DNA of 64,000 nt, from contig NZ_CP080572.1 of assembly GCF_023746595.1 (NCBI RefSeq), forward strand, positions 496,001 to 560,000, given 5' to 3'. Below, in pieces: positions 21,575 to 62,704 of this stretch; the first letter of the stretch is position 1; each line of letters opens with the position of its first letter. Source of the stretch: Thermococcus argininiproducens (GTDB lineage: Archaea > Methanobacteriota_B > Thermococci > Thermococcales > Thermococcaceae). Under the pieces are notes generated by a model. That model had not been told where the DNA came from, did not search any database, and saw nothing but the letters and a program-made list of their open reading frames with translations. Made by a program: the position numbers and the translations under genes.

Positions 21575-21991
21575 ATGAAATACAAACTTGACAGAGGAGC
21601 TCACTCCGTATACTCTCTTCACTATCATCTCATCTTCGTAGTAAAGTACCGTAGAAAAGTTTTTACAAATGATAAAATCATTGACTTCCTCAAACAGAAG
21701 ATTCACGAGATTTCAGAAACTTTTGAAGTTGAAGTTCTTGCAATAGAGTGTGATGCGGATCATGTTCACATTTTGTTCAAAGCAAAGCCAACCCTGAACA
21801 TCCCCAAGTACATCAACGCCCTGAAAACCATAACTTCGAGAGAGATAAGGAGAAAGTTTCCAGAGGTGAAGAAGAAGCTGTGGAAGAACGTCTTCTGGTC
21901 TCCTTCATATTTTCTCGCAACGACTGGACAAGTTACGTTGGATGTTTTGAAGAAGTATGTGGAATCACAAGGTGAGAATGGTGCTGATTAG
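21575..21991 (+). CDS. tnpA: IS200-type TnpA transposase (Y1 HUH)
   Basis: 138-residue HUH single-strand transposase. The HUH motif is CDADHVHILF (H63, H65) and the catalytic tyrosine is Y112 in SPSYFLATTGQVTL. Length is full for the family. Uses hairpin ends to excise and insert the element as ssDNA. Its last codons overlap the start of tnpB. A decayed relative of its C-terminal part is found at 26326-26480. Confidence 0.95.
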   Translation: MKYKLDRGAHSVYSLHYHLIFVVKYRRKVFTNDKIIDFLKQKIHEISETFEVEVLAIECDADHVHILFKAKPTLNIPKYINALKTITSREIRRKFPEVKKKLWKNVFWSPSYFLATTGQVTLDVLKKYVESQGENGAD

Positions 21992-23222
21992 CTACAAATT
22001 CCGCATATATCCCTCAAAGACTATAGAAGCAAAACTAAACGAACAGCTTGAGTTATGTCGCTGGTTGTATAACCGTTTGCTTGAAGAAGTCAACAAAGCT
22101 CGTAGAGAAGGTAGAAAGATAACTTGGAGAGACACTCAAGCTCTTATCGTGAAGATTAAGCAAGAAAAACCAGAGCTGAAGAACGTTTACTCCAAAGTTT
22201 TACAGATGGTGAACCACCAGCTCTGGTCAAACATTAAAGGCTTAAACGAGCTGAGAAAGAAGGGAAAGAAGGTTGGATGGCTTCGTTATAAGACCTCACC
22301 AAACTCATTTAAAACTCTGAATTTCAACCAGAGCGGATTCAGAATTGACTTCAAGAGGAGGAAGTTAGTCCTGTCCAAAGTTGGAGAGATCACGATAGAG
22401 CTTCACCGTCCAATTGAAGGTAAGATTAAGGGTGTAATAATCAAGAGAACCAAACGCGGTAAGTGGTTCGCAATCGTGCAAGCTGAAGTGGAGCCAGAAC
22501 CCCTACCTCCAACGGGGAGAGCTATTGCTATAGACTTGGGAATTCAGAACTTCTGCGTTGATTCTGATGGACTTGCGTTCGAGAATCCAAAGTTCATCGA
22601 TAAAACTCTTGAGAAAATAAAGAGGGTGCAGAAACAGCTATCAAGAAAGCAGAAGGGATCAAAAAGAAGAGAGAAAGTCAGACTTAGGCTGGCTAAACTC
22701 TATGAGAAGCTCGAAAATCAACGCAACGATTTCCTGCATAAACTCTCTCGATATTATGTCAACAACTATGACGTAATTTGCGTGGAAGATCTCGACATTA
22801 GGGATATGGTAGAGAACGGTAACTCCTCAACTCTGAATAGACACATTCACGATTCTGCTTGGTATAAATTCCTCTCACTGCTCGCCTACAAGGCTGAAAG
22901 AGCTGGTAGGTGGGTGCTGAGAATTAAGCCTGCTAACACTTCAAAAAGATGTGCTAGGTGTGGTTATGTCATGGAAAACCTAACCTTGAAGGATAGATGG
23001 TTTGTTTGTCCTATTTGTGGATGGGAGGCGGACAGAGATTACAACGCTTCCCTAAACATCTTAGATGTGGGGCTGGGACGGTCCCGAACGCCCGTGGAGA
23101 GAGAACCTCTACTCCTAATTATTCCCTATCGGAAGGTGATCGAGGGGCAAGTTCTCTCAGTGAAGCGGGAAGCCCCCTTGCGTAAGCGAGGGGGTAGTTC
23201 ACGTTTTCCTACATCTCAATGA
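21978..23222 (+). CDS. tnpB: TnpB RNA-guided nuclease
   Basis: About 414 residues. RuvC-like residues are all present: D186 (AIAIDLGIQNF), E270 (VICVEDLDIRD), D354 (ADRDYNASLN), with the zinc ribbon CARCG...CPICG. TnpB uses an RNA made from the element's right end to cut DNA. Starts at 21957, 21978 or 21981 are possible inside the tnpA end; GGTGAG precedes the last two. The last about 6 codons lie beyond the right-end hairpin in host DNA and overlap the ccdA stop by 14 nt, so the C-terminus was set by the insertion site. Confidence 0.92.
   Translation: MVLISYKFRIYPSKTIEAKLNEQLELCRWLYNRLLEEVNKARREGRKITWRDTQALIVKIKQEKPELKNVYSKVLQMVNHQLWSNIKGLNELRKKGKKVGWLRYKTSPNSFKTLNFNQSGFRIDFKRRKLVLSKVGEITIELHRPIEGKIKGVIIKRTKRGKWFAIVQAEVEPEPLPPTGRAIAIDLGIQNFCVDSDGLAFENPKFIDKTLEKIKRVQKQLSRKQKGSKRREKVRLRLAKLYEKLENQRNDFLHKLSRYYVNNYDVICVEDLDIRDMVENGNSSTLNRHIHDSAWYKFLSLLAYKAERAGRWVLRIKPANTSKRCARCGYVMENLTLKDRWFVCPICGWEADRDYNASLNILDVGLGRSRTPVEREPLLLIIPYRKVIEGQVLSVKREAPLRKRGGSSRFPTSQ
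23173..23194 (+). repeat. IS right-end hairpin (probable guide-RNA scaffold end)
   Basis: A 9-bp stem (one T-G pair) capped by GTAA, within the last codons of tnpB and followed by TAGTTCACG. It is similar in layout to the solo hairpins at 500, 59815 and 60201. Confidence 0.7.
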
Positions 23223-49648: not shown

Positions 49649-50854
49649 TTATATGTTTTGCGGCATCAGAGAATTATAAATTTGCTTTATATTTTCTCCA
49701 TAGCTTTCCCAGGTGTAGCCGAGCCTAAATAATAACTGTCGACTCTCCTTTTTCATTCTCTCCAGTTCTTGCTGGTTTTCCAGTAAATAGATAATTTTCT
49801 CTGCAAGATCTTGGGTATCACTTGGATTTATGAGGAATCCATTCACGTTGTCAAAAACTTGCTCTGGGATTCCGTTTATGTTGGATGCTATGATTGCACA
49901 TTCACTGCTCATGGCTTCGTAGATTGCTACGGGCTTCCCTTCGGAGAGGCTGGGTAGGACAAATACGTCTGCAATCCCATACCACTCTTTGAGCTCATTA
50001 AATGGAACTCTGCCGGTGAAAATAACATAGTCCCTAATATTTAGCTCTAGGGCCAGCTTTTGTAATTTTTTCTCTTCGGGGCCGCCTCCAACAATGACAA
50101 ATTTGATGTTCTTCTTAACTTCTTGGGAAAGTCTTTGTAAAACTACTGGAATTGCATGCAAGAGGGTTTTGACGTTCTTTCTCGGTATCAGCTGGCCGAC
50201 ATACAGCACTATCATGTTCTCAGGAGTGATTCCATACTTTTGAATAACGATTTTTGAGTCCTCCCGCTTTAGAGGCTTAAATTCATTGGGGTCAACTCCA
50301 AGGCTTATGTGTTCAATTTTTTCCTCAGAGATGCCCAAATTTATTAGGGTTCTTTTAAGGAATTCTGCAATTGTTATGACTTTATCTGCAGCTTGGAGTG
50401 TTGAAAGGACATTTTTTGAGCATATGTTAAGATTGTTTGGGCTGTGTACTGTTACTATGACTGGGGTATTCAGCTTTTTTGCTATGGGGATGCCTCCGTA
50501 TCCGTCAAGATAAGGATGTAAAGCGTGGATAATATCTGGCTTTGCAATTTCCCCTCTCTTCAAGCTTTTCGTGATGAATTTGCTAACAGAATATCTGTAA
50601 AGCTCCCCGGTAATGCAATAAAAGAGGGATTTTGGAAGGGGATACAAAAATCTTGGATAGTATACAGGATAACCATAAGAGAGGTCTTGGTTTGGAATCT
50701 GGGCAAATTTGGAAAATGGGGGAGCGAAGGGCCTTGGAGCTATTACCACAGGGTTTGCAAATTCTAAAACACTGTCAACTGCGCTTTTGTTCCAAGGTGC
50801 CCACGTTTTGTTCACTGGATCTGGGAAGTTGGACGCTAGGAAGAGGATATTCAT
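49649..50854 (-). CDS. Glycosyltransferase family 4-like, GT2
   Basis: 401 residues, GT-B. Motifs: VLYVGQLIPRKNVKTLLHAI and LPSLSEGKPVAIYEAMSSEC (EX7E region). The ATG overlaps the previous gene's stop by 4 nt (ATGA), so translation is coupled to the alpha/alpha-toroid protein. Confidence 0.92.
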   Translation of the reverse strand: MNILFLASNFPDPVNKTWAPWNKSAVDSVLEFANPVVIAPRPFAPPFSKFAQIPNQDLSYGYPVYYPRFLYPLPKSLFYCITGELYRYSVSKFITKSLKRGEIAKPDIIHALHPYLDGYGGIPIAKKLNTPVIVTVHSPNNLNICSKNVLSTLQAADKVITIAEFLKRTLINLGISEEKIEHISLGVDPNEFKPLKREDSKIVIQKYGITPENMIVLYVGQLIPRKNVKTLLHAIPVVLQRLSQEVKKNIKFVIVGGGPEEKKLQKLALELNIRDYVIFTGRVPFNELKEWYGIADVFVLPSLSEGKPVAIYEAMSSECAIIASNINGIPEQVFDNVNGFLINPSDTQDLAEKIIYLLENQQELERMKKESRQLLFRLGYTWESYGENIKQIYNSLMPQNI

Positions 50855-52077
50855 TTGAATTCACCCTCAAGAAGCTTTAATGAATAGGTCAAACAATCAA
50901 GAATTTCAGACGTCATAAACATATCCGGAAAGTTCTTAGAAGGTTCAATCGTTGAGGCCTTTATGCCTAAAAGCTTTGTTACAATTTTAAAGAGCATGTC
51001 GTCCTTTACTTCCTTGGAGAACCTTCTCCTCGCTATCTGTCTGTAAATAGCGTAGCCAAACCTAAATAGTTTATGTGTTAATGCATAATCTCCAATCCAA
51101 GCGCTTTTGAATGAAGTTAGGACATCTGTTGGGAAACCTGGCCAGTTCCCTCTTTCCCATCTAAGAGCTATATCCGGGGTGTTTTCTTTTAAGATGGGTA
51201 GTGATTTCCTTGCATTCTCTAGGTAATGCTCATCCCATTTGGAGGTGTATAGGAAGGATGCAATTCCAAAAGCATAGGCCCCTGTTAGGTAATAAGCAAA
51301 CATGAGGCCACTTTTTGACCAATCAAACCTTCCATTATCTTTTTGGGCCTTTGAAAGCCATTGAGCTCCTTTGAGCATGCATTCTTTGAGCCATTCTTCT
51401 TGAATAACCTCATGAATTTTTGAGAGGTAATAAAGGGTAACCCCTTGATAGTGGATGCATGGGACTTTTAGGTGATGTTGTTGGTTTCCTTTTGTTACAG
51501 TATATGGGAAGGAACCATCGGTCTCTTGGAAATCACATACTCTCTTGGCAGCTCTCTTTGCACCTTCTAGGGCTTCTCCGTCATTAAAAACCTTGTAATA
51601 TTGGGCCAAAAATGCCCCGCAGGTGGCATCAACGTTAAGGTAGTCTGCCCTATATAGCTTGGACTTTAGGAAGTATCCAGGTTCTACCTCGCTGGAAAGA
51701 ACGAAATCTCGTGCTTTTATTAAGGCCTTTTGAATCGTTTCTTTAAGCTGGCTCTCCAAGTATGGTAATGATAAAAGCAGGGCTTCTCCCACAAATGATG
51801 TTACAAGGGCGGATTCTTGATTGTAATTTGGATGGATTTCATTCCATGAACCATTGGGGTTCTGTCTTAGTAAGAGAAAATTCACGAGTTTTTGAATGAC
51901 TTCTCTTTTCTTCTCTCCATGAAGTCTGATTATGGATTTTAGGTATTCAGCACTAACCCTATTTCTCACAATTCCAAACACGGGGTCTTTTATGTATGCA
52001 GTATCTTCTTCAATTATCAGATGCTGACTTGTGCTATTCTCCAATGAGTACAGATATTTTTCAATGCCCTTCTCCAT
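50851..52077 (-). CDS. Alpha/alpha-toroid protein of the glycan locus
   Basis: 408 residues, all-helical with repeated Q-x(2-3)-G-x-W/F patterns (RQNPNGSWNEIHPNYNQ, DFQETDGSFPYTV, AQKDNGRFDWSKSG), as in prenyltransferase/squalene-cyclase-like or glycan lyase/epimerase toroids. HHLKVPCIHYQG may hold active-site His residues. No signal peptide. Coupled with GT2 and overlapping GT3 by 17 nt. Role unknown; glycan epimerisation or lysis is conceivable. Confidence 0.75.
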   Translation of the reverse strand: MEKGIEKYLYSLENSTSQHLIIEEDTAYIKDPVFGIVRNRVSAEYLKSIIRLHGEKKREVIQKLVNFLLLRQNPNGSWNEIHPNYNQESALVTSFVGEALLLSLPYLESQLKETIQKALIKARDFVLSSEVEPGYFLKSKLYRADYLNVDATCGAFLAQYYKVFNDGEALEGAKRAAKRVCDFQETDGSFPYTVTKGNQQHHLKVPCIHYQGVTLYYLSKIHEVIQEEWLKECMLKGAQWLSKAQKDNGRFDWSKSGLMFAYYLTGAYAFGIASFLYTSKWDEHYLENARKSLPILKENTPDIALRWERGNWPGFPTDVLTSFKSAWIGDYALTHKLFRFGYAIYRQIARRRFSKEVKDDMLFKIVTKLLGIKASTIEPSKNFPDMFMTSEILDCLTYSLKLLEGEFK

Positions 52078-53260
52078 TTTGCTCCCTCACTACATCAAGC
52101 ACACGTAAAAACTTTCTTGCCGAGGCCTCACGGCTGTACTGTGAGACATATCTTAGGCTATATAGCCTCATTTTCCGCATGTTTGACCTTAAAAGTTTTT
52201 TAATGCATTCAGCAACCTCTTTGGGAGTTTTCCCTACACACCCTGCTTGGCTTTCTTTGGCTATTCTTTCAATTTCTCCGGCTCCAACACCAACAAATGG
52301 TAAGCCGCATGCCAGGTATTCATAGATTTTTGAGGGGATGGCATATTTTAAGCTCTCGTCTGCCTTTATCGGGGCCACTCCAATGATGGAAGAACATAAG
52401 AGGTTAACAACTTCCTCTCTTGACAGCATTCCAATGTAGCTTATCCATCTGGACAGACCAAGTTTTTCAGCCTTTTCCAGAGTTTCGTTGAGGTTTTCCC
52501 CACTTCCTGCAAGGATCAGGGGAATTCTATCCTTTTCATTAACTAAAGCATAGCCTTCCAAAAATGTATCAAAGTCTTGAGCATGACCGAAATAACCTGT
52601 ATAGACCATCTGGAGTTTTCTTGTTTTCTTCTTACATTTGAATGCTTCTAAATCAACGCCATTTGGGACAACGTAACATTTAGTGGGGTTTACTCCATAT
52701 TTTTTGATCAGCTGGCGTCTTATTTTGGGGGTGACTACTGTAATGGCATTGGCCGTTTGAAGGGCCTTTGATTCGAGAAATCTAAAGATCCTTTCAACAA
52801 TACTCCCCTTTTTTATGAAGCCTAAGCTTACGCTAACATCAAGAAAGAGATCTCTTATGTCTACGATAACTTTCTTTTTCAGGAGTTTTCCGGTTAATGC
52901 AACAATATACATCTGGGGGGGTGGGGAGGTTATTAGAATTACATCCGTACGCTTTCTATTCCGAATCAACCAGAGGCTCGCAAGTAAAGGAAAAAATGTG
53001 TAATACATGGCCCTTTCAAGTCCGGATGCTTCTTTTTTTGGCTGGTATGTGAAAAGTCTGATTACATCTCCCTCTCTCTTTGAAAATTTAAACTTTCGAG
53101 GAAACGTGCCAAAGGGATAGGTCTCGATCGCAGAAACAACGGTAATCCCAACCCCAAATTTTGTGAGATAGTTGTAAAGGTCGCCCATTCTTGATGCGTT
53201 CCCGCCCTTTTCTGGCGGAAAAGCTTGGGAGAATATTACTAAGTCACTCTTTGTTTCCAT
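52061..53260 (-). CDS. Glycosyltransferase family 4-like, GT3
   Basis: 399 residues; FSQAFPPEKGGNASRMGDLY at the N-terminus, WbuB-like linker with ITSPPPQMYIVALTGKLLKK, donor domain MVYTGYFGHAQDFDTFLEGY and PSKIYEYLACGLPFVG. WbuB-type enzymes often transfer N-acetylated sugars. The ATG at 53260 follows TGAGGT. Divergent from the WbpD-like gene. Confidence 0.9.
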   Translation of the reverse strand: METKSDLVIFSQAFPPEKGGNASRMGDLYNYLTKFGVGITVVSAIETYPFGTFPRKFKFSKREGDVIRLFTYQPKKEASGLERAMYYTFFPLLASLWLIRNRKRTDVILITSPPPQMYIVALTGKLLKKKVIVDIRDLFLDVSVSLGFIKKGSIVERIFRFLESKALQTANAITVVTPKIRRQLIKKYGVNPTKCYVVPNGVDLEAFKCKKKTRKLQMVYTGYFGHAQDFDTFLEGYALVNEKDRIPLILAGSGENLNETLEKAEKLGLSRWISYIGMLSREEVVNLLCSSIIGVAPIKADESLKYAIPSKIYEYLACGLPFVGVGAGEIERIAKESQAGCVGKTPKEVAECIKKLLRSNMRKMRLYSLRYVSQYSREASARKFLRVLDVVREQNGEGH

Positions 53261-53332
53261 GGGCATACCTCACATGAGTTATCTCAACAATGCTTTTATA
53301 ATTTAGGGATTCAATACTCTGTGGTGTTCAAA

Positions 53333-53938
53333 ATGGCTCAAAAGTATTTCGTTCATCCTCTGGCCGTTGTTGAAGAAAATGTTGAAATCGGTGAAGGGAC
53401 TAGAATTTGGCACTTTGCACACATTAGAAAAGAGGCCAAAATAGGCAAAAACTGTAACATCGGGAAAGACGTTTACATTGATGTTGGTGTTGAAATTGGC
53501 AACAATGTGAAGATCCAGAACGGGGTGAGTGTTTATCATGGTGTTAAAGTTGAGGATGACGTTTTTCTCGGCCCACACATGACATTTACTAACGATCTTT
53601 ATCCGAGAGCCTTTAATCAGGACTGGGAAGTTGTGCCAACTCTTGTAAAGAAGGGTGCAAGCATAGGAGCGCATGCAACAATAGTTTGTGGAGTTACAAT
53701 TGGAGAATACGCAATGGTTGGAGCGGGGGCTGTAGTTACAAAGGACGTTCCCCCATTTGGTCTGGTTTTTGGAAACCCAGCAAGGCTTAAAGGCTTTGTG
53801 TGTTATTGTGGGAGGAAATTAGAGGAGAAAATCGGAGAAGATGAGAGTGGAATAGTCTTTAAGTGTTCCCACTGTGGAAGAGAAGTTAAAATCAGAAGGG
53901 AAGATTATGAAAGATATCTAAGGGAGAAGGATTTGTGA
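53333..53938 (+). CDS. WbpD-like sugar N-acetyltransferase
   Basis: 201 residues. Left-handed beta-helix with hexapeptide repeats (IGEGTRIWHFAHIRKEAKIG; YIDVGVEIGNNVKIQNGVSV) followed by a C-terminal zinc-ribbon (CYCGRK...CSHCGRE). Resembles the acetyltransferase that makes UDP-2,3-diacetamido-2,3-dideoxyglucuronate. Followed after 9 nt by the matching aminotransferase. The ATG at 53333 follows GGTG. Confidence 0.88.
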   Translation: MAQKYFVHPLAVVEENVEIGEGTRIWHFAHIRKEAKIGKNCNIGKDVYIDVGVEIGNNVKIQNGVSVYHGVKVEDDVFLGPHMTFTNDLYPRAFNQDWEVVPTLVKKGASIGAHATIVCGVTIGEYAMVGAGAVVTKDVPPFGLVFGNPARLKGFVCYCGRKLEEKIGEDESGIVFKCSHCGREVKIRREDYERYLREKDL

Positions 53939-53947
53939 GGTGTTGTT

Positions 53948-55054
53948 ATGAGGAACATCCCAATAGCTAAACCTTTGATCGGGGATGAAGAGATTAACGG
54001 TGTTATTGAGGTTTTGAAGAGCGGGATGCTGGCGAGTGGAAAGGAAGTAGAAGAATTTGAAAAAGAATTTGCTCAATACTTGGGAGTGAAGCATGGAATA
54101 GCCGTTGTAAATGGAACTGCCGCACTTGATGTTGCCCTTAAGGCTTTGAGGATAGGGCCAGGAGATGAAGTTATAACCACTCCATTCACCTTCATCGCTT
54201 CAGCAAACTCAATTCTATTCCAAGGAGCAAAGCCAGTTTTTGCTGATATCGATCCAAAAACCTTCAACTTAGATCCAAATGAGGTCCTCGAAAAGATTAA
54301 CGAGAAGACCAAGGCGATATTGGTTGTTCACCTCTATGGCCAGCCTGCTGATATGAAGGCCTTTAAAGAAATAGCGGAGGATCACAAGCTCTATCTTGTT
54401 GAGGACTGTGCCCAGGCCCATGGAGCCGAGTTTAATGGCCAAAAGGTGGGAACCTTTGGAGACATTGCTGCATTCAGCTTTTACCCAACCAAGAACATGA
54501 CCACCGGGGAGGGCGGTATGGTTGTTACAAATGACGATGAGTTAGCAAAGAGGGCCGATTTAATAAGGAATCACGGCCAGGCGGAGAAGTACCTTCACGT
54601 TGAGCTTGGCTATAACTTGAGGATGACCAACATCGCGGCTGCTATTGGAAGGGCCCAACTCAAAAAGCTCGATGGATGGAATGAGAGAAGAATTGAGAAT
54701 GCAAGGCTTTTAACCGATGGAATAAGCGAGATTGATGGATTAACCCCACCTTATACTGATCCAAGAGTCAAGCACGTATTTCATCAATATGTGATTAGGG
54801 TGGAGGAGGAGTTTCCATTAAATAGAGACGAGCTCATGGTAAAATTGGGGGAAAAAGGGATCGGAAGCGCTGTACATTATCCGATTCCAGTTCATCATCA
54901 GCCTTTCTATCAAAAGCTTGGCTATCCAAATGACATTTGTTCGAATGCCGTTGAAGCCTCAAAGAAAGTGCTGAGCTTACCGGTGCACCCAGCTGTTAAT
55001 AGGGGAGACATTGATTATATAATCAATACCCTTAGGGAACTGGGGACTCTGTGA
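53948..55054 (+). CDS. DegT/DnrJ/EryC1-family aminotransferase (WbpE-like)
   Basis: 368-residue PLP aminotransferase of nucleotide-3-keto-sugars. Motifs: NGTAALDVALKALRIGPGDE, VEDCAQAHGAEFNGQKVG (Asp of PLP ring), and AFSFYPTKNMTTGEGGM with the PLP lysine. With the WbpD-like and WbpB-like genes it gives most of a diacetamido-uronic-acid pathway. GAGGTG ribosome site. Confidence 0.92.
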   Translation: MRNIPIAKPLIGDEEINGVIEVLKSGMLASGKEVEEFEKEFAQYLGVKHGIAVVNGTAALDVALKALRIGPGDEVITTPFTFIASANSILFQGAKPVFADIDPKTFNLDPNEVLEKINEKTKAILVVHLYGQPADMKAFKEIAEDHKLYLVEDCAQAHGAEFNGQKVGTFGDIAAFSFYPTKNMTTGEGGMVVTNDDELAKRADLIRNHGQAEKYLHVELGYNLRMTNIAAAIGRAQLKKLDGWNERRIENARLLTDGISEIDGLTPPYTDPRVKHVFHQYVIRVEEEFPLNRDELMVKLGEKGIGSAVHYPIPVHHQPFYQKLGYPNDICSNAVEASKKVLSLPVHPAVNRGDIDYIINTLRELGTL

Positions 55055-55169: not shown

Positions 55170-56543
55170 TCAATTAGATATCTCAAAGTCCTTCAAATCC
55201 CACACCAGAAAACCCTTCTCTTCTAATTCTTCTTTATTCTCGACTCTTTTTGCTACCAATCCACAATTTTTCTCCCATCCTTCCAGTCCTACAACTTCAA
55301 TCTTATTTTCTAAGTCCTTCAGAATTCCTTGGGCTTTTTTTTCACTCAACTCCTTCCACTTAACTTCGACAAAAAGGGCTTTCTTCTCCTTCTTATTCAG
55401 TGCAACAATGTCAATCTCCTCTCCCTTATGCCACCAGCGACCAATCTTTGTGAACTTAAATGGCAGTCTTCCTTCGCGATTAAGTTCTATTAAAAGCTGC
55501 CTTACTATTTCTTCGAAGGCAAAGCCTATATACTGGTTGAAGCCTCGTCTGAACTCTTCAAGGGCTCCATCTGGAAAACCACTTTCAATTTCCTCGAAAT
55601 AAGGTGCCACGAAACGGAACCAGAAAGCAAAATAGAGGTCTCTGAAGCGGTAAATTCCTCTCTTTGCCTTCCTTGCCACTGGGAGTTCCCTCTTTAGTAT
55701 TCCCAAATCCTCAAGTATCCTTAGATAGCGGGCTGTATTTTTGGGCTCGATAAAAGAGTGCTGGGCTATCTCATTGACGCGTGTTTTTCCTTCAGCTACT
55801 GCCTCAAGTATTGTGTAGTATGTCTCTGGTTCCCTGAACTCTTCCTCTAAGAGCTCTTTGGCCTCTCTGAAGAGAAATGCATTTGGATCAAAGAAGTTCT
55901 TTTCAATGTCTTTTTCGGCACTTTTACCTTCAAAGAGCTCAAGGTATCTTGGAACACCGGAAGTTACTGCATAAATCTTCACAGCTTCCTCTGGATCTGT
56001 CCCATCAAACCACTCAAAGAGATGTTTAAACTTCAAGGGCTGGAGGTTAAGTGTTGCATCACTCCTCCCATAGAGTGGACTTGAGTAGTCAAAGAAGCTC
56101 CTCTTTAGAAGACCAACGGAGGAAGCTGACAGGATTAGCATTATACTACTGTCGGCTAAAATTTCGTCCACTATGCTCTGGAATTCAGCCTCGACCTCAG
56201 AATATCGAAGCAAGTAGGAGAATTCGTCGAGGAAAACTATAAGCCTCCCTTTTGCCTGCGAGCCTATGAAACGGAAAGCATCTGAGAAGGTTGAAAAGTT
56301 TGGCACGGGGATGCTAAAGTACTCTCCTATCGCCCTGTTGAGTTTTGTAAGGTTGTATTCCCACACCCTCTTCTCGAACTGCACTGTTATTGTGCTCTTG
56401 TTTGTCAAGAACTCTCTCACGAGTCTGCTTTTGCCTATTCTTCTCCTACCAGTGACGAGTACAAGAGTGAAGTCGCTTCTATTGTAAAGTTTTTCGAGTG
56501 TTTCAAGCTCTTCTTTTCGGTTTACAAATTTTCGAATTTTCAT
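55170..56543 (-). CDS. Archaeal ATPase with DUF234 domain, copy 1
   Basis: 457 residues: ATPase_2-type P-loop LVTGRRRIGKSRL (about 30-42), Walker B RLIVFLDEFSYLL, a winged-helix segment (RVNEIAQHSFIEPKNTARYL) and a C-terminal PD-(D/E)xK-like DUF234 region (EIDIVALNKKEKKALFVEVK). Family function unknown. It interrupts the Wbp-like gene series on the other strand. TATATAATT-like promoter, no ribosome site. Confidence 0.9.
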   Translation of the reverse strand: MKIRKFVNRKEELETLEKLYNRSDFTLVLVTGRRRIGKSRLVREFLTNKSTITVQFEKRVWEYNLTKLNRAIGEYFSIPVPNFSTFSDAFRFIGSQAKGRLIVFLDEFSYLLRYSEVEAEFQSIVDEILADSSIMLILSASSVGLLKRSFFDYSSPLYGRSDATLNLQPLKFKHLFEWFDGTDPEEAVKIYAVTSGVPRYLELFEGKSAEKDIEKNFFDPNAFLFREAKELLEEEFREPETYYTILEAVAEGKTRVNEIAQHSFIEPKNTARYLRILEDLGILKRELPVARKAKRGIYRFRDLYFAFWFRFVAPYFEEIESGFPDGALEEFRRGFNQYIGFAFEEIVRQLLIELNREGRLPFKFTKIGRWWHKGEEIDIVALNKKEKKALFVEVKWKELSEKKAQGILKDLENKIEVVGLEGWEKNCGLVAKRVENKEELEEKGFLVWDLKDFEISN

Positions 56544-56857: not shown

Positions 56858-57808
56858 ATGCTCCGTGTTGGTGTAGTTGGCGTCGGAAATATGGGGAGGC
56901 ATCATGCGAGGATTTATTCTGAGCTGTCAAAGGAAGGAGAGGTAGAATTTGTTGGGGTGGCTGATGCTAACTTAGAGAGGGCTAAAGAAGTCGCTTCTCA
57001 ATTTAAAACAAAGGCTTTTGGTGATTACAGGGAACTGATAGGGAGAGTTGATGCTGTGAGTATTGCAGTTCCAACTTCTCTCCACAAACAAGTTGCTCTG
57101 GAGTTTATTGAAAATGGTGTCAGCGTTTTAGTAGAAAAACCAATAGCCGAGAGCATTGAGAGCGCTCAAGAAATAATAAGGGCAGCAAAGAAGAATAATG
57201 TCACCTTAATGGTTGGACATGTGGAAAGATTCAATCCCGGTGTTTTGAAACTTAAAGAGATTTTGGATGAGAATTTAATCGGAAAAGTGGTTACTCTCAC
57301 TGCCAAGCGTGTTGGGCCTTTGCCTCCACAGATCAAGGATGTTGGTGTAATAATAGATTTGGCTGTTCATGATATTGATGTCATGAGCTTTTTACTTGAG
57401 AGAAATGTGAGGAAAGTTTACGCTAGGGCTGGGAGTGCAAAGAATCCCCTTGAACTTGAGGATTATGCGATAATAATGCTTGACTTTGAAAACGCCACAG
57501 GAGTTGTGGAGACCAACTGGCTCACTCCTCATAAGGTTAGAACCCTTAGTGTGGTTGGGACTGAGGGCATAGCGGAATTGAATTACATAACCCAGAAGCT
57601 GATCCTATACAATCATGAGTGGGTCAAGGAGGCGAAGGTGCAGTTTAAGGAGCCTTTAAGAAACGAGCTTGAACATTTTGTTGAGTGTGTTAAAAAGGAA
57701 GAGAAACCATTAGTGAACGGAGAAGAGGGACTTCATGCGCTGATGGTTGCCATAAAGGCTTTAGAGAGCGCCAATAAGGATGAAGCAATAGACGTGGAGT
57801 TCACATAA
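56858..57808 (+). CDS. Gfo/Idh/MocA oxidoreductase (WbpB-like)
   Basis: 316 residues; N-terminal NAD-binding Rossmann VGVVGVGNMGRHHARIY, EKP motif (VLVEKPIAESIESA), and VHDIDVMSFLL in the catalytic domain. Probably oxidises the 3-OH of UDP-GlcNAc-uronate before transamination by the WbpE-like enzyme. The ATG at 56858 follows GGTGATC. Confidence 0.9.
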   Translation: MLRVGVVGVGNMGRHHARIYSELSKEGEVEFVGVADANLERAKEVASQFKTKAFGDYRELIGRVDAVSIAVPTSLHKQVALEFIENGVSVLVEKPIAESIESAQEIIRAAKKNNVTLMVGHVERFNPGVLKLKEILDENLIGKVVTLTAKRVGPLPPQIKDVGVIIDLAVHDIDVMSFLLERNVRKVYARAGSAKNPLELEDYAIIMLDFENATGVVETNWLTPHKVRTLSVVGTEGIAELNYITQKLILYNHEWVKEAKVQFKEPLRNELEHFVECVKKEEKPLVNGEEGLHALMVAIKALESANKDEAIDVEFT

Positions 57809-57835
57809 CTCAATTTTTAAGGTCTAATAGAACAA

Positions 57836-58010
57836 GTGAGGGACACCGCATGGTCCGGAGGCCTCAGTGAAGTTTCGCTCTGAGGCAGAGCTCACATCTT
57901 CACCCATAAACCTCACAACTCTGGGTAAGTTGCTCGGTTTACGGTTAGATATGAACTCTGGATCAGGGTGAAGCTTTCGCTTCGGTCCCTTCCCACACAG
58001 TGCCCCTCAA
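57836..58010 (+). ncRNA. Structured GC-rich RNA candidate
   Basis: About 175 nt noticeably richer in GC than its surroundings. The ends pair (TGAGGG-a-CAC at 57837 with GTG-c-CCCTCA at 58000). Inside are GCCTCAG/CTGAGGC, TTCACCC/GGGTGAA around 57899-57972, TAAACC/GGTTTA enclosing CAACT/AGTTG, and GAAGC-TTTC-GCTTC. A TATA-like TTTTTAA at 57814-57820 is about 25 nt upstream. No open frame. It recalls the GC-rich Hgc-type RNAs of Pyrococcus; the class is unproven. Confidence 0.65.
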
Positions 58011-58200
58011 TACATGATTGGTTTTGAAGTATATAAAGGTTCTTGTTCGAAAAAATATATATAAATCAAAAAATAATTTGAAATTCATTAAAAATAATCG
58101 GGAGTGATCTAGTTAAAAGATGATCAAAAATTAAAAATCGCAATTAGATTGGAAGCAGCGTCGGGAAAATGTTAGTCTTGGGGTTAAAAAATGCTTAATT

Positions 58201-58288: not shown

Positions 58289-59692
58289 TCAAGTCCCTAA
58301 AATCTGGAGGATCTTCCTTTCATCCAGCACTATTAGGTTCTCTGGCGCATTCTTTACCTTTCTAGCTATCAGGAGATAATAGCTCTCTCCTTTCCAGTTG
58401 CTTAGCTCAACTTTTCTCTTCAGGTCCTCGAGGACTTTTTCACCATTTACGGGCTTGTTCCGCCACTTACACTCGCCAAAGAGAGCCCTTTTTCTGTCCC
58501 GACTGAGGGCCACTATGTCTATTTCATAGACTTTTCTCTGCTCGTTTTCCCTGTAATAGCCCCAGTGTCGTCCTATTTCGGTGAATTTGAAGGGTAACTC
58601 TCCCTTGCCATTTAAAATCCACAGCAATTCTCTGCAGATGAAGTCGAACCTCTTTCCAGTGAAGTCGGACAACATGGAGATTACTTCTTTTCCGAGCTCT
58701 TCACGCATTGCTTCATACTCACTCAGTCTCGGATGGACGAAGCGGAACCAGAAGTTGAGCAGCGGATGTCTTATGTAAATCACTCTCTCCTTTCCGAGAA
58801 TGGCTTTATCATAGGAGAGCAGCTTGAAGTAATCAACCAATTCCTTTATCTGTCTTGTCAGTGATGTTTCCTCCCGATTCATATAGCCTGCTATCTTGCT
58901 TAGCGATGTTGCTCCATTAGCCACAGCCTCGAGTATGTCATAGTACACTCCAGAACGTCTTCCAAACTCAAGGGAGAGTATCCTCGGTACTTCTTCTTCT
59001 AGTGGGGCTGAAGGAGAGAAGAAGAGATTTTTAATGATTTCCTCTGCACTTTTTCCTTCAAGCCCTTCATCCTCTATGGCCACGTAGTATTTGGGCAAAC
59101 CGCCAAAAACTGCATAAAGTTTCATAAAGTCATCAATCTCTTCTATTTCTAGCTCTCTTGACAGTTTATAGCTGGCTTTAATTCCAAGCTCCTTCAAATG
59201 GAGCTCTCGCTTTATCCTCCCGTAGAGTGGCTCCTTCGAGTCTCTGAAGATCTTTTCAATCATCCCAATTGTTGAGCCGGTGAAGACTAGCATGAGGTTT
59301 TTTCTGCTCTCATGGAGGTCTATGAGCTTCTGAAGGGTTGAGAACACTGAGGGTTCAACTCTCTGGAAATCCTGAAACTCATCAAAGACAACAACACCCT
59401 CAAATCTTTCAAAAAGCACTTCAAAAAACTCGTCCCAGCTTGATATATGTTCATACTTTGTTATGGCCCCTCTTTTCTTTAGAATTTCTTCATATTCTCT
59501 CAAAAGGGATTCAGAAGTCTTGCCTCTATTAACGAAGAAATAGAGGTCTTTCTCTCTTAAGAACTCAAGTAGGAGTCTTGTTTTGCCAACTCGTCTTAAT
59601 CCATAAACCACTAAAGTGTAGAGCTTCTTTTTTGAGCGTTTTTTTGCTTCTTCGAGTATTCTCATCTCAGTATCCCTGTCGATGAAGCGCAT
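58289..59692 (-). CDS. Archaeal ATPase with DUF234 domain, copy 2
   Basis: 467 residues, paralogue of 55170. P-loop VVYGLRRVGKTRL, Walker B VVVFDEFQDFQ, a winged-helix part and a C-terminal nuclease-like EIDIVALSRDRKRALFGECK. The ATG at 59692 follows AGGTGAA. Flanked on both sides by long noncoding stretches with repeats; such ATPases are commonly mobile or duplicated. Confidence 0.9.
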   Translation of the reverse strand: MRFIDRDTEMRILEEAKKRSKKKLYTLVVYGLRRVGKTRLLLEFLREKDLYFFVNRGKTSESLLREYEEILKKRGAITKYEHISSWDEFFEVLFERFEGVVVFDEFQDFQRVEPSVFSTLQKLIDLHESRKNLMLVFTGSTIGMIEKIFRDSKEPLYGRIKRELHLKELGIKASYKLSRELEIEEIDDFMKLYAVFGGLPKYYVAIEDEGLEGKSAEEIIKNLFFSPSAPLEEEVPRILSLEFGRRSGVYYDILEAVANGATSLSKIAGYMNREETSLTRQIKELVDYFKLLSYDKAILGKERVIYIRHPLLNFWFRFVHPRLSEYEAMREELGKEVISMLSDFTGKRFDFICRELLWILNGKGELPFKFTEIGRHWGYYRENEQRKVYEIDIVALSRDRKRALFGECKWRNKPVNGEKVLEDLKRKVELSNWKGESYYLLIARKVKNAPENLIVLDERKILQILGT

Positions 59693-59814
59693 TATATTCA
59701 CCTACTGAATTATTCATCTACTGAATATAAAAATTTATCGATGGGTAAACAAGTTTCGACTAATCATGATTAGAAAACCTCAGGGCAACATGTTCCAGTT
59801 ATTCAGAGTTGCCT

Positions 59815-60599: not shown

Positions 60600-60626
60600 T
60601 TCTCTAAAACTTTTTAGGTGATAGCG

Positions 60627-61766
60627 ATGGTTTCTAAGCCCCACGGAGGAAAACTGGTTAGGAGAATAGCTGCCCCGAAGACAAGGGAGAGGATTTTAAG
60701 TGAGCAGCATGAGTATCCGAGAGTTCAGATTGATCATGGAAGGGCCATTGACCTTGAGAACATAGCCCATGGTGTTTATTCTCCACTGAAGGGATTCTTA
60801 ACGAGAGATGATTTTGAGAGTGTTTTAGACCACATGAGGTTGAGTGATGACACTCCATGGACCATTCCAATAGTGCTTGATGTTGAAAATCCAACCTTTG
60901 AAGAAGGAGACGCGGTTCTTCTCTACTATGAGGACTTACCAGTAGCGAGAATGCATGTGGAGGAGATTTACACCTACGACAAGAAGGAGTTTGCCAAAAA
61001 CGTATTCAAAACCACTGAAGAGGCCCATCCGGGGGTTGCAAGGGTCTACTCAATGGGTGATTATCTAGTTGGTGGAGAGATAGAGCTCCTGAATGAGCTT
61101 CCGAATCCCTTTGCCAAGTACACTCTTAGACCGGTTGAAACGAGGATTCTTTTTAGGGAGAGGGGGTGGGAAACCATAGTTGCTTTCCAGACTAGGAACG
61201 TTCCACACGTGGGTCATGAATACGTCCAAAAGTCAGCCCTCACATTCGTTGACGGCCTCTTCATAAACCCTGTTTTGGGTAAGAAGAAAAAGGGCGACTA
61301 TAAGGATGAAGTGATTATCAAGGCCTATGAGGTGCTTTTCAAGCACTACTATCCAAAGGATGCCGCTACACTGGCAACCGTCAGGTATGAGATGCGCTAT
61401 GCCGGGCCTAGAGAAGCAATTCACCACGCCATAATGAGGAAGAACTTTGGAGCAACGCACTTCATCGTAGGAAGGGATCATGCAGGCGTTGGCAATTATT
61501 ACGGGCCTTACGATGCTCATGAGATCTTTAACCACTTCCCCGACCTGGGCATAACACCAATGTTCTTCAAGGAGTTCTTCTACTGCAGGAGATGTGGTTC
61601 AATAGTTAACGAAAGGATCTGTCCACATCCGATGGAAGATAGGGAATACTTCAGTGGAACAAAGATCAGAAATATGATAAGGGAGGGCAAAGTACCTCCA
61701 GCATACTTCATGAGGCCCGAGGTGTATGAGGTCATAAGGAGCTTTGATAATCCCTTTGTAGAGTGA
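60627..61766 (+). CDS. sat: ATP sulfurylase (sulfate adenylyltransferase)
   Basis: 379 residues; makes adenosine 5'-phosphosulfate from ATP and sulfate. Motifs FQTRNVPHVGHEY (QxRN...HxxH, active site) and FIVGRDHAGVGNYYGPYDAH are complete; a Cys/His cluster CRRCGSIVNERICPHP suggests a zinc site as in archaeal enzymes. The ATG at 60627 follows GGTGAT. Provides APS for PAPS synthesis and the sulfotransferases at 40172-45618. Confidence 0.95.
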   Translation: MVSKPHGGKLVRRIAAPKTRERILSEQHEYPRVQIDHGRAIDLENIAHGVYSPLKGFLTRDDFESVLDHMRLSDDTPWTIPIVLDVENPTFEEGDAVLLYYEDLPVARMHVEEIYTYDKKEFAKNVFKTTEEAHPGVARVYSMGDYLVGGEIELLNELPNPFAKYTLRPVETRILFRERGWETIVAFQTRNVPHVGHEYVQKSALTFVDGLFINPVLGKKKKGDYKDEVIIKAYEVLFKHYYPKDAATLATVRYEMRYAGPREAIHHAIMRKNFGATHFIVGRDHAGVGNYYGPYDAHEIFNHFPDLGITPMFFKEFFYCRRCGSIVNERICPHPMEDREYFSGTKIRNMIREGKVPPAYFMRPEVYEVIRSFDNPFVE

Positions 61767-61771
61767 TTTCT

Positions 61772-62704
61772 ATGCTGATAATCCACCACTGGGACACGGA
61801 TGGCATAACCTCAGCAGCTTTACTCGTTAAGGCCCTCAACCTAGTGGAATTTAAAAACATGAGTCCTCCCATTGGCGAGTTCCGCTTTGATGAGAGGATC
61901 AAGAGAGCTATTGAGAGATCGGAGGAAATTTACATCCTTGATCTAAACCTTCCCCACGAAGTTGAGGGCATTAATAAAAGCATAGTATTCATAGACCACC
62001 ACATCCAGCCAAGGATCAGAAACCCAAAAGTCAAGCAGATAAACCCGGCCCTTGAGGGTGAGGAGGCTCCCTCGGCTTCCTTTGTTGTTTCTCAATATTT
62101 TAATTTCTGGAACACTTGGAGCGCTCTGGGAGTTATTGGGGATATAGGGGAAAAGGCCTTTGAGATTCCTAAAGTTGGGGAGCTTTTAGAAAGGGAGGGC
62201 TTCACAAAGGAGGAAGCTTTGAGGCTAGTGGAGCTCATGGATTCGAATTATATAACCACGGAAAGGAAAAGCGTTGAAAAGGCCGTTAAAGTAGTTCTTG
62301 AAACCCCTGTGAGAGATCTTTTGACATATGGGCCATGGGTCAAAAAGGCTGAGGCAATAGGGGAGGCTATTAATGGGGCCCTTGCGGGGGCAGAGGTGAG
62401 GGATGGAATGGCCTTCATAACTTTCAAGAGCCCGTTCAACATTATCTCCAAGGTGGCCAGAAAGGCCGTCTGGGAGATAGGCTATGAGGGAGCGGTGGTT
62501 GTTAATGAGGACTTCCATGGGAAGGCCCAGATTTACTTCAGGATTTCGTCGAAAATGGCCAAGAAAATAAATATGGGTGAAATAATCTCTGAACTTAAGG
62601 GTAAAGGCTTCAATGCCGGAGGTAAGAGAGAGGTTTTAGGGTGTATTTGTGAGAAAGATAAAATTGAGGAAGTTTTGAGAATAATTAACGCTCATTTGGG
62701 GTGA
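61772..62704 (+). CDS. DHH-family phosphoesterase
   Basis: 310 residues. DHH domain motifs HHWDTDGITSAALL and FIDHHIQPR, with a DHHA1-type C-terminus (GKGFNAGGKREVLG). Located between ATP sulfurylase and a phosphodiesterase, it may hydrolyse 3'-phosphoadenosine-5'-phosphate (PAP), the product of sulfotransferases (inference from context). The ATG at 61772 follows GAGTGAT; GTG 61763 is the alternative and overlaps the sat stop. Confidence 0.88.
   Translation: MLIIHHWDTDGITSAALLVKALNLVEFKNMSPPIGEFRFDERIKRAIERSEEIYILDLNLPHEVEGINKSIVFIDHHIQPRIRNPKVKQINPALEGEEAPSASFVVSQYFNFWNTWSALGVIGDIGEKAFEIPKVGELLEREGFTKEEALRLVELMDSNYITTERKSVEKAVKVVLETPVRDLLTYGPWVKKAEAIGEAINGALAGAEVRDGMAFITFKSPFNIISKVARKAVWEIGYEGAVVVNEDFHGKAQIYFRISSKMAKKINMGEIISELKGKGFNAGGKREVLGCICEKDKIEEVLRIINAHLG

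Follow-up and report, generated by a model that had tools for sequence, protein, structure and literature searches.

A conserved GC-rich structured RNA, apparently undescribed before, at glycan and sulfate loci of the Thermococcaceae

Introduction

The GC-rich block that lies in an AT-rich gap between a sugar oxidoreductase gene and an ATPase gene of Thermococcus argininiproducens raises the question of what it encodes and from which strand. To our knowledge, few archaeal RNA families are known beyond guides, SRP and RNase P. Hgc and SscA of Pyrococcus are GC-rich structured RNAs that, according to two reports, were found as GC islands in AT-rich Thermococcales DNA (PMC3124441, PMC5316973). 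A first-pass annotation of the 64,000-nucleotide stretch analyzed here (the window) had proposed a structured RNA at 57836-58010, and its description of a GC-rich segment in AT-rich intergenic DNA holds: GC content is 53.8% in a 173-nt block, against ~29% in the intergenic DNA on either side and 39.5% in the window as a whole. The block and its immediate neighbors are the following.

57837-58009, minus strand: structured RNA of 173 nt, counted between the outermost bases of its closing helix P1
56819-57808, plus strand: GFO/IDH/MocA sugar oxidoreductase gene (Pfam), convergent with the RNA and ~28 bp away
58289-59701, minus strand: DUF234 ATPase gene

Results

Fold and strand

The pairing of the segment's ends that had been proposed corresponds to a 17-bp helix, P1 (58009-57993 with 57853-57837), and the internal stems said to be visible resolve into P2, a two-part P3 and P4.

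57993-58009, minus strand: 5′ strand of P1 (helix 1 of the model; 17 bp)
57970-57983, minus strand: P2 hairpin, GAAGC-GAAA-GCUUC, nearly invariant
57886-57960, minus strand: P3, a long two-part arm (helices 3 and 4 of the model)
57862-57885, minus strand: P4 hairpin (helix 5 of the model)
57837-57853, minus strand: 3′ strand of P1 (helix 1 of the model; 17 bp)

The minus strand folds at -94.3 kcal/mol (z -9.7) and the plus strand at -77.5 kcal/mol (z -6.1), each better than all 200 of its dinucleotide shuffles. Wobble pairs in P1 discriminate between the strands, since a G-U pair on the minus strand would be an A-C mismatch on the other. Read on the minus strand, P1 holds 45 G-U and 2 A-C cells in clade I, with 86 and 16, respectively, in clade II, and the functional molecule is therefore the minus-strand RNA. 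Fold z score, this asymmetry and the minus-strand promoter described below together reverse the plus-strand orientation that the first-pass annotation had implied. The plus strand might instead be the functional molecule, as a stable structure in the 3′-UTR or terminator of the convergent sugar gene, a reading that would suit its folding better than its own shuffles and its frequent position 4-60 bp past the convergent gene's stop codon; given that both the G-U over A-C asymmetry and the conserved promoter favor the minus strand, we consider it very unlikely. Protein coding was rejected: the longest Met-initiated run in any copy is 38 aa, and the copies differ by indels.

Compensatory changes across the Thermococcales, which had been named as a check on the proposed RNA, are abundant in two alignments, one of 17 sequences (A2; clade I, including the window) and one of 27 (A3; clade II). 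Three of the 47 copies, one truncated (G109) and two divergent (G075 and G015b), were removed from both before pairs were counted; a further alignment, A4, omits G109 only. Among 46 copies, pairwise identity spans 39-99%. Under the P1-P4 model, 94.7% of 917 cells are paired in A2 and 92.5% of 1282 in A3, with both sides changed in 20 of 54 and 23 of 48 pairs, and in neither alignment did any of 500 shuffles match the percentage paired, the doubly changed pairs or cells, or the covariation score. With the partners offset by 1-3 columns as a control, pairing fell to 28-47% (A2) and 39-50% (A3). A measure of further pair types showed no excess over shuffles, 390 and 134 of 500 of which reached the observed value. 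The bulk of the covariation comes from P1 and P3, and P2, being almost invariant, affords no covariation test of its pairing.

P2 and P4 can alternatively pair with each other, which yields a continuous rod of energy similar to that of the four-way form and clearly favored by some copies (e.g., G028 and G017). A conserved switch between four-way and rod forms is possible; because the two are similar in energy and not uniformly conserved, we do not claim one. A kink-turn in P3, judged by eye, was not convincing.

Promoter and upstream elements

The TATA-like box that the first-pass annotation had placed ahead of a plus-strand segment gives way to the box TTTATATA on the minus strand (58037-58030), which is kept in 44 of the 47 copies.

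58030-58037, minus strand: promoter box TTTATATA, assigned from its sequence, 28 nt before P1 in the window
~58038-58042, minus strand: A/G-rich BRE-like bases adjoining the box
58038-58080, minus strand: match to an upstream element, approximately ATTTTGCTTTAAATAAAA, with approximate limits set by eye; weak in the window

The distance from box to P1 is 28 nt in 13 copies and 29 nt in 31, the exact 8-letter box being absent from the remaining three. This spacing would put the 5′ end of the RNA near 58009, and the gene would be transcribed from the minus strand by its own archaeal promoter. At the other end, conservation drops within ~4-6 nt past the aligned core, just after P1. The ATTTTGCTTTAAATAAAA element, read by eye in the relatives' upstream sequences, recurs in many members of both clades, and its spacing to the box, also by eye, varies by ~10 bp, or one helical turn. 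In clade II (L054-L089), an inverted repeat, TTTTGC-N11-GCAAA, lies ~20-60 bp upstream of the RNA and overlaps the BRE; it was found beside the RNA in 18 searched loci and at only 4 other places in 554 kb, and it possibly serves as the operator for a regulator.

A conserved fold supported by compensatory changes and a promoter of its own at fixed distance in 44 of 47 copies are both marks of a noncoding RNA gene, and we are close to certain that these copies constitute a real noncoding RNA family.

Distribution and copies

The RNA occurs in 41 of 94 genomes of one family, in all six of its genera, as found with model R1; from the named records, we take this family to be the Thermococcaceae. 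Across the 115 genomes of the class that were searched, R1 gave 42 genomes with a match at E ≤ 0.01, including a weak, partial one in G064, and no RNA outside the family. Forty genomes, nearly all previously without a match, yielded no more than weak matches when rescored under looser filters. Model R2, built from clade II only and so without the window in its training, recovers the window RNA at 3e-14 and found no additional full copies in the 40 + 27 genomes searched with it, some of which were already known positives. The 47 copies come from 40 genomes; the truncated copy of G008 counts among the 41 positive genomes and is outside the 47. Among named records, four Thermococcus or Thermococcales MAG contigs carry the RNA. 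The RNA-bearing genomes include, by our own assignment, T. barophilus and T. onnurineus, the latter being presumably G074. No match was obtained in the genomes that we take to be T. kodakarensis, T. gammatolerans, P. horikoshii and P. abyssi, and absence from T. kodakarensis and P. abyssi would explain why their transcriptome studies need not have encountered this RNA.

Full copies are ~160-186 nt long and mostly single, with two in each of seven genomes: tandem pairs ~320 bp apart in G074, G085 and G087, same-strand pairs 15-28 kb apart in G021, G086 and G089, and copies on separate contigs in G015. The G074 pair occupies 1723919-1724086 and 1724239-1724399 of that genome, on its minus strand. 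The copies of G089 (C6:85825 and C6:113622; L054 and L055), ~28 kb apart, are near-identical in different flanks, which suggests either gene conversion confined to the RNA or a recent duplication. Decayed copies were also seen. The weak match of G071 (L096) is an internally deleted remnant that keeps its promoter and lies 109 bp from an STT3/AglB-like gene, and the G008 copy (L094) retains only the 3′ part, in a genome without ATP sulfurylase.

The occurrence of two copies in a few genomes, and the fact that the DNA forms a long imperfect inverted repeat (on account of which the RNA model also scores the reverse strand), would fit a DNA element, either a MITE-like mobile inverted repeat or a cruciform site. 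This is extremely improbable in view of the strong G-U over A-C asymmetry, the fixed promoter distance and the limit of one or two full copies per genome. Moreover, searches of plasmid and phage collections returned no match, and no copy was confirmed in viral contigs, where the lone pattern match (L108) lies on a GC-rich contig with bacterial-phage-like ORFs, has no model match and is not this RNA.

Gene neighborhood

In the window, the RNA is surrounded by genes for glycan synthesis and sulfate activation, in addition to the two neighbors given above.

49649-55054: glycan genes encoding glycosyltransferases, a hexapeptide acyltransferase and a DegT aminotransferase (Pfam)
60618-61766, plus strand: ATP sulfurylase gene (Pfam PF01747)
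61763-62704, plus strand: DHH phosphoesterase gene (Pfam PF01368)

In other genomes, with neighbors labeled by Pfam and by BLAST to labeled clusters, the loci contain (i) an STT3/AglB-like protein (weak Pfam support), ATP sulfurylase, APS kinase, DHH phosphoesterase, a phosphodiesterase and TauE, and (ii) a sugar nucleotidyltransferase, an NDP-sugar epimerase, a UDP-sugar dehydrogenase, a flippase, a sulfatase and glycosyltransferases. By reading, and as a raw count, 46 of 47 copies have a glycan or sulfate gene nearby; nearby here means within the three closest ORFs to either side or, for G006 and G031, an ATP sulfurylase on the same contig at ~3 kb. Only the second copy of G015 departs from this. 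The RNA gene would be part of a variable locus in the chromosome at which surface glycans are made and sulfate is activated.

Several features of these loci deserve separate mention. Two DUF234 archaeal ATPase genes (55170-56543 and 58289-59701) flank the RNA/oxidoreductase pair in the window, and other genomes also have related ATPases close to the RNA. At L064:6414-9170, the UDP-sugar dehydrogenase gene adjoining the RNA has an intein with a LAGLIDADG domain. In G022, one ORF (L059:11018-12421) joins an ATP-sulfurylase-type N-terminal PUA_2 domain to a phosphodiesterase C-terminus and is apparently what is left of a second sulfate cluster next to the RNA.

The upstream neighbor is divergent in 37 of 47 copies, and the downstream neighbor is on the opposite strand, often 4-60 bp away, in 39 of 46, the window included. 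Where the RNA and its downstream gene converge, the RNA cannot serve as the leader of that gene. We therefore regard a role as 5′ leader, or as a riboswitch-like element acting in cis on the next gene, as highly improbable. The other 7 of 46 copies do share a strand with the next gene, an example being a glycosyltransferase gene 239 bp away in G089; that conservation stops directly past P1 argues against such a role as well.

Co-occurrence with ATP sulfurylase and the STT3/AglB-like gene

Of the 41 genomes with the RNA, 38 have ATP sulfurylase, as against 21 of the 53 genomes that lack the RNA (p = 8.5e-8); among genomes at least 90% complete, the figures are 34 of 37 and 19 of 38 (p = 9e-5), both p values ignoring phylogeny. 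The three RNA-positive genomes without it include G008, whose RNA is truncated, and G012, in which a stop-containing APS-kinase remnant lies ~3 kb from the RNA; conversely, 21 genomes have ATP sulfurylase and no RNA. In the 33 genomes with both on one contig, the two are at most 7 kb apart in 23, 22 kb in one and 129-184 kb in nine. APS kinase is useless as a presence/absence marker because all 94 genomes give weak matches. The STT3/AglB-like gene lies within 42 kb of the RNA in all 28 RNA-positive genomes with both on one contig, with 16 of these distances below 3 kb and 10 below 1 kb; in those 10 genomes the gene is divergent from the RNA. As a predictor of the RNA it was rejected, being present in 32 of 40 RNA-negative genomes searched.

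A rival proposal makes the RNA gene a passenger in, or an anchor of, a glycan island that recombines, in which copies at the edges allow cassettes to be swapped and the role of the RNA is unrelated to glycans. The neighboring genes vary widely while their functional class stays constant, DUF234 and AAA_14 ATPase genes are common near the RNA, three genomes (G021, G086 and G089) have same-strand copies 15-28 kb apart, and in G089 the copies are almost identical while the sequence past the RNA differs. We nevertheless think this rather unlikely: single copies prevail among the genomes, fold, promoter and strand asymmetry are under a selection for which a recombination site as such would have no use, and the co-occurrence with ATP sulfurylase persists in the nine genomes in which 129-184 kb separate the two.

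Comparison with known RNAs

That the RNA is GC-rich, structured and of no assigned family, as first annotated, is supported. Rfam gave no match in the window at gathering scores except two tRNAs, nothing better than chance in 57700-58200 when E values up to 10 were allowed, and no match on the RNA at five other loci. The parallel with Hgc had been drawn from the GC island, and it stands as a route of discovery, since this RNA, like Hgc and SscA, is a GC-rich structured RNA gene in the AT-rich DNA of hyperthermophilic Thermococcales. As kinship it fails: the Hgc, SscA, H/ACA and C/D models of Rfam do not match the RNA, which was not found in our presumed P. abyssi and P. horikoshii genomes.

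Another resemblance is to sRk48/sRk52 of P. abyssi, which have their own BRE/TATA promoter, a ~180-nt primary transcript and a near-invariant P1 hairpin, are present in several Thermococcales, and are related to OrfB/TnpB elements (PMC3124441). The new RNA likewise combines its own BRE/TATA promoter, a similar length and a near-invariant hairpin with presence in several Thermococcales. A relationship was rejected: blastn of three copies against both loci, located by the coordinates in PMC3124441 on the genome that we take to be P. abyssi, returned only chance stretches of 8-14 nt with E above 0.1. By eye and from the same report, the sRk48/sRk52 loci (L060 and L061) resemble TnpB-type guide RNA ends and not the new RNA (PMC3124441). 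A TnpB/OrfB guide RNA was likewise rejected, since TnpB-cluster ORFs are among the three nearest ORFs to each side in only 3 of 47 copies (G021b, G086a and G065) and never overlap the RNA in a regular way. The window has one such transposase gene of its own.

21957-23222: OrfB/TnpB transposase gene, 421 aa

With two tandem copies in G074, taken as T. onnurineus, the RNA may be among the unassigned noncoding RNAs of that species, and its transcript may already have been detected there without a name. In the accessible parts of the T. onnurineus NA1 study, 57 intergenic noncoding RNAs with TATA/BRE are reported, 22 of them assigned via Rfam, and none of this kind is named (PMC5316973). Literature searches, covering parts of PMC3124441, PMC4247193 and PMC5316973 among others, returned no description of the RNA and no archaeal RNA family tied to protein glycosylation or the cell coat, so that it is apparently undescribed.

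Discussion

On balance, we favor the view that the window contains a member of a new structured noncoding RNA family, with its own promoter, that resides in a glycan/sulfate locus and may act in trans as an RNP. The RNA ends would pair as the long P1, closing a junction with P2 and its GAAA tetraloop, the long P3 arm and P4. Stable RNP scaffolds typically show such a combination of paired ends, GNRA hairpin and long arm. On the reading that we find most likely, the RNA would be bound by protein and act in trans to serve or regulate the glycan/sulfate locus. The components of this proposal differ in strength. Whether the function of the RNA is tied to the glycan/sulfate locus is, in our judgment, an evenly balanced matter, and a trans-acting regulatory RNP in particular is put forward tentatively, as somewhat short of an even prospect. 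We speculate, with considerable doubt, that the RNP could be dedicated to the surface-glycan system, expressed from a specialized promoter and traveling with the STT3/AglB-like and sulfate-activation genes, and that it could time the production of a sulfated coat, possibly with control exerted through the four-way junction/rod switch. The family would give Rfam a new entry for which the alignment is ready, and the role of such an RNA in archaeal surface biology becomes directly testable.
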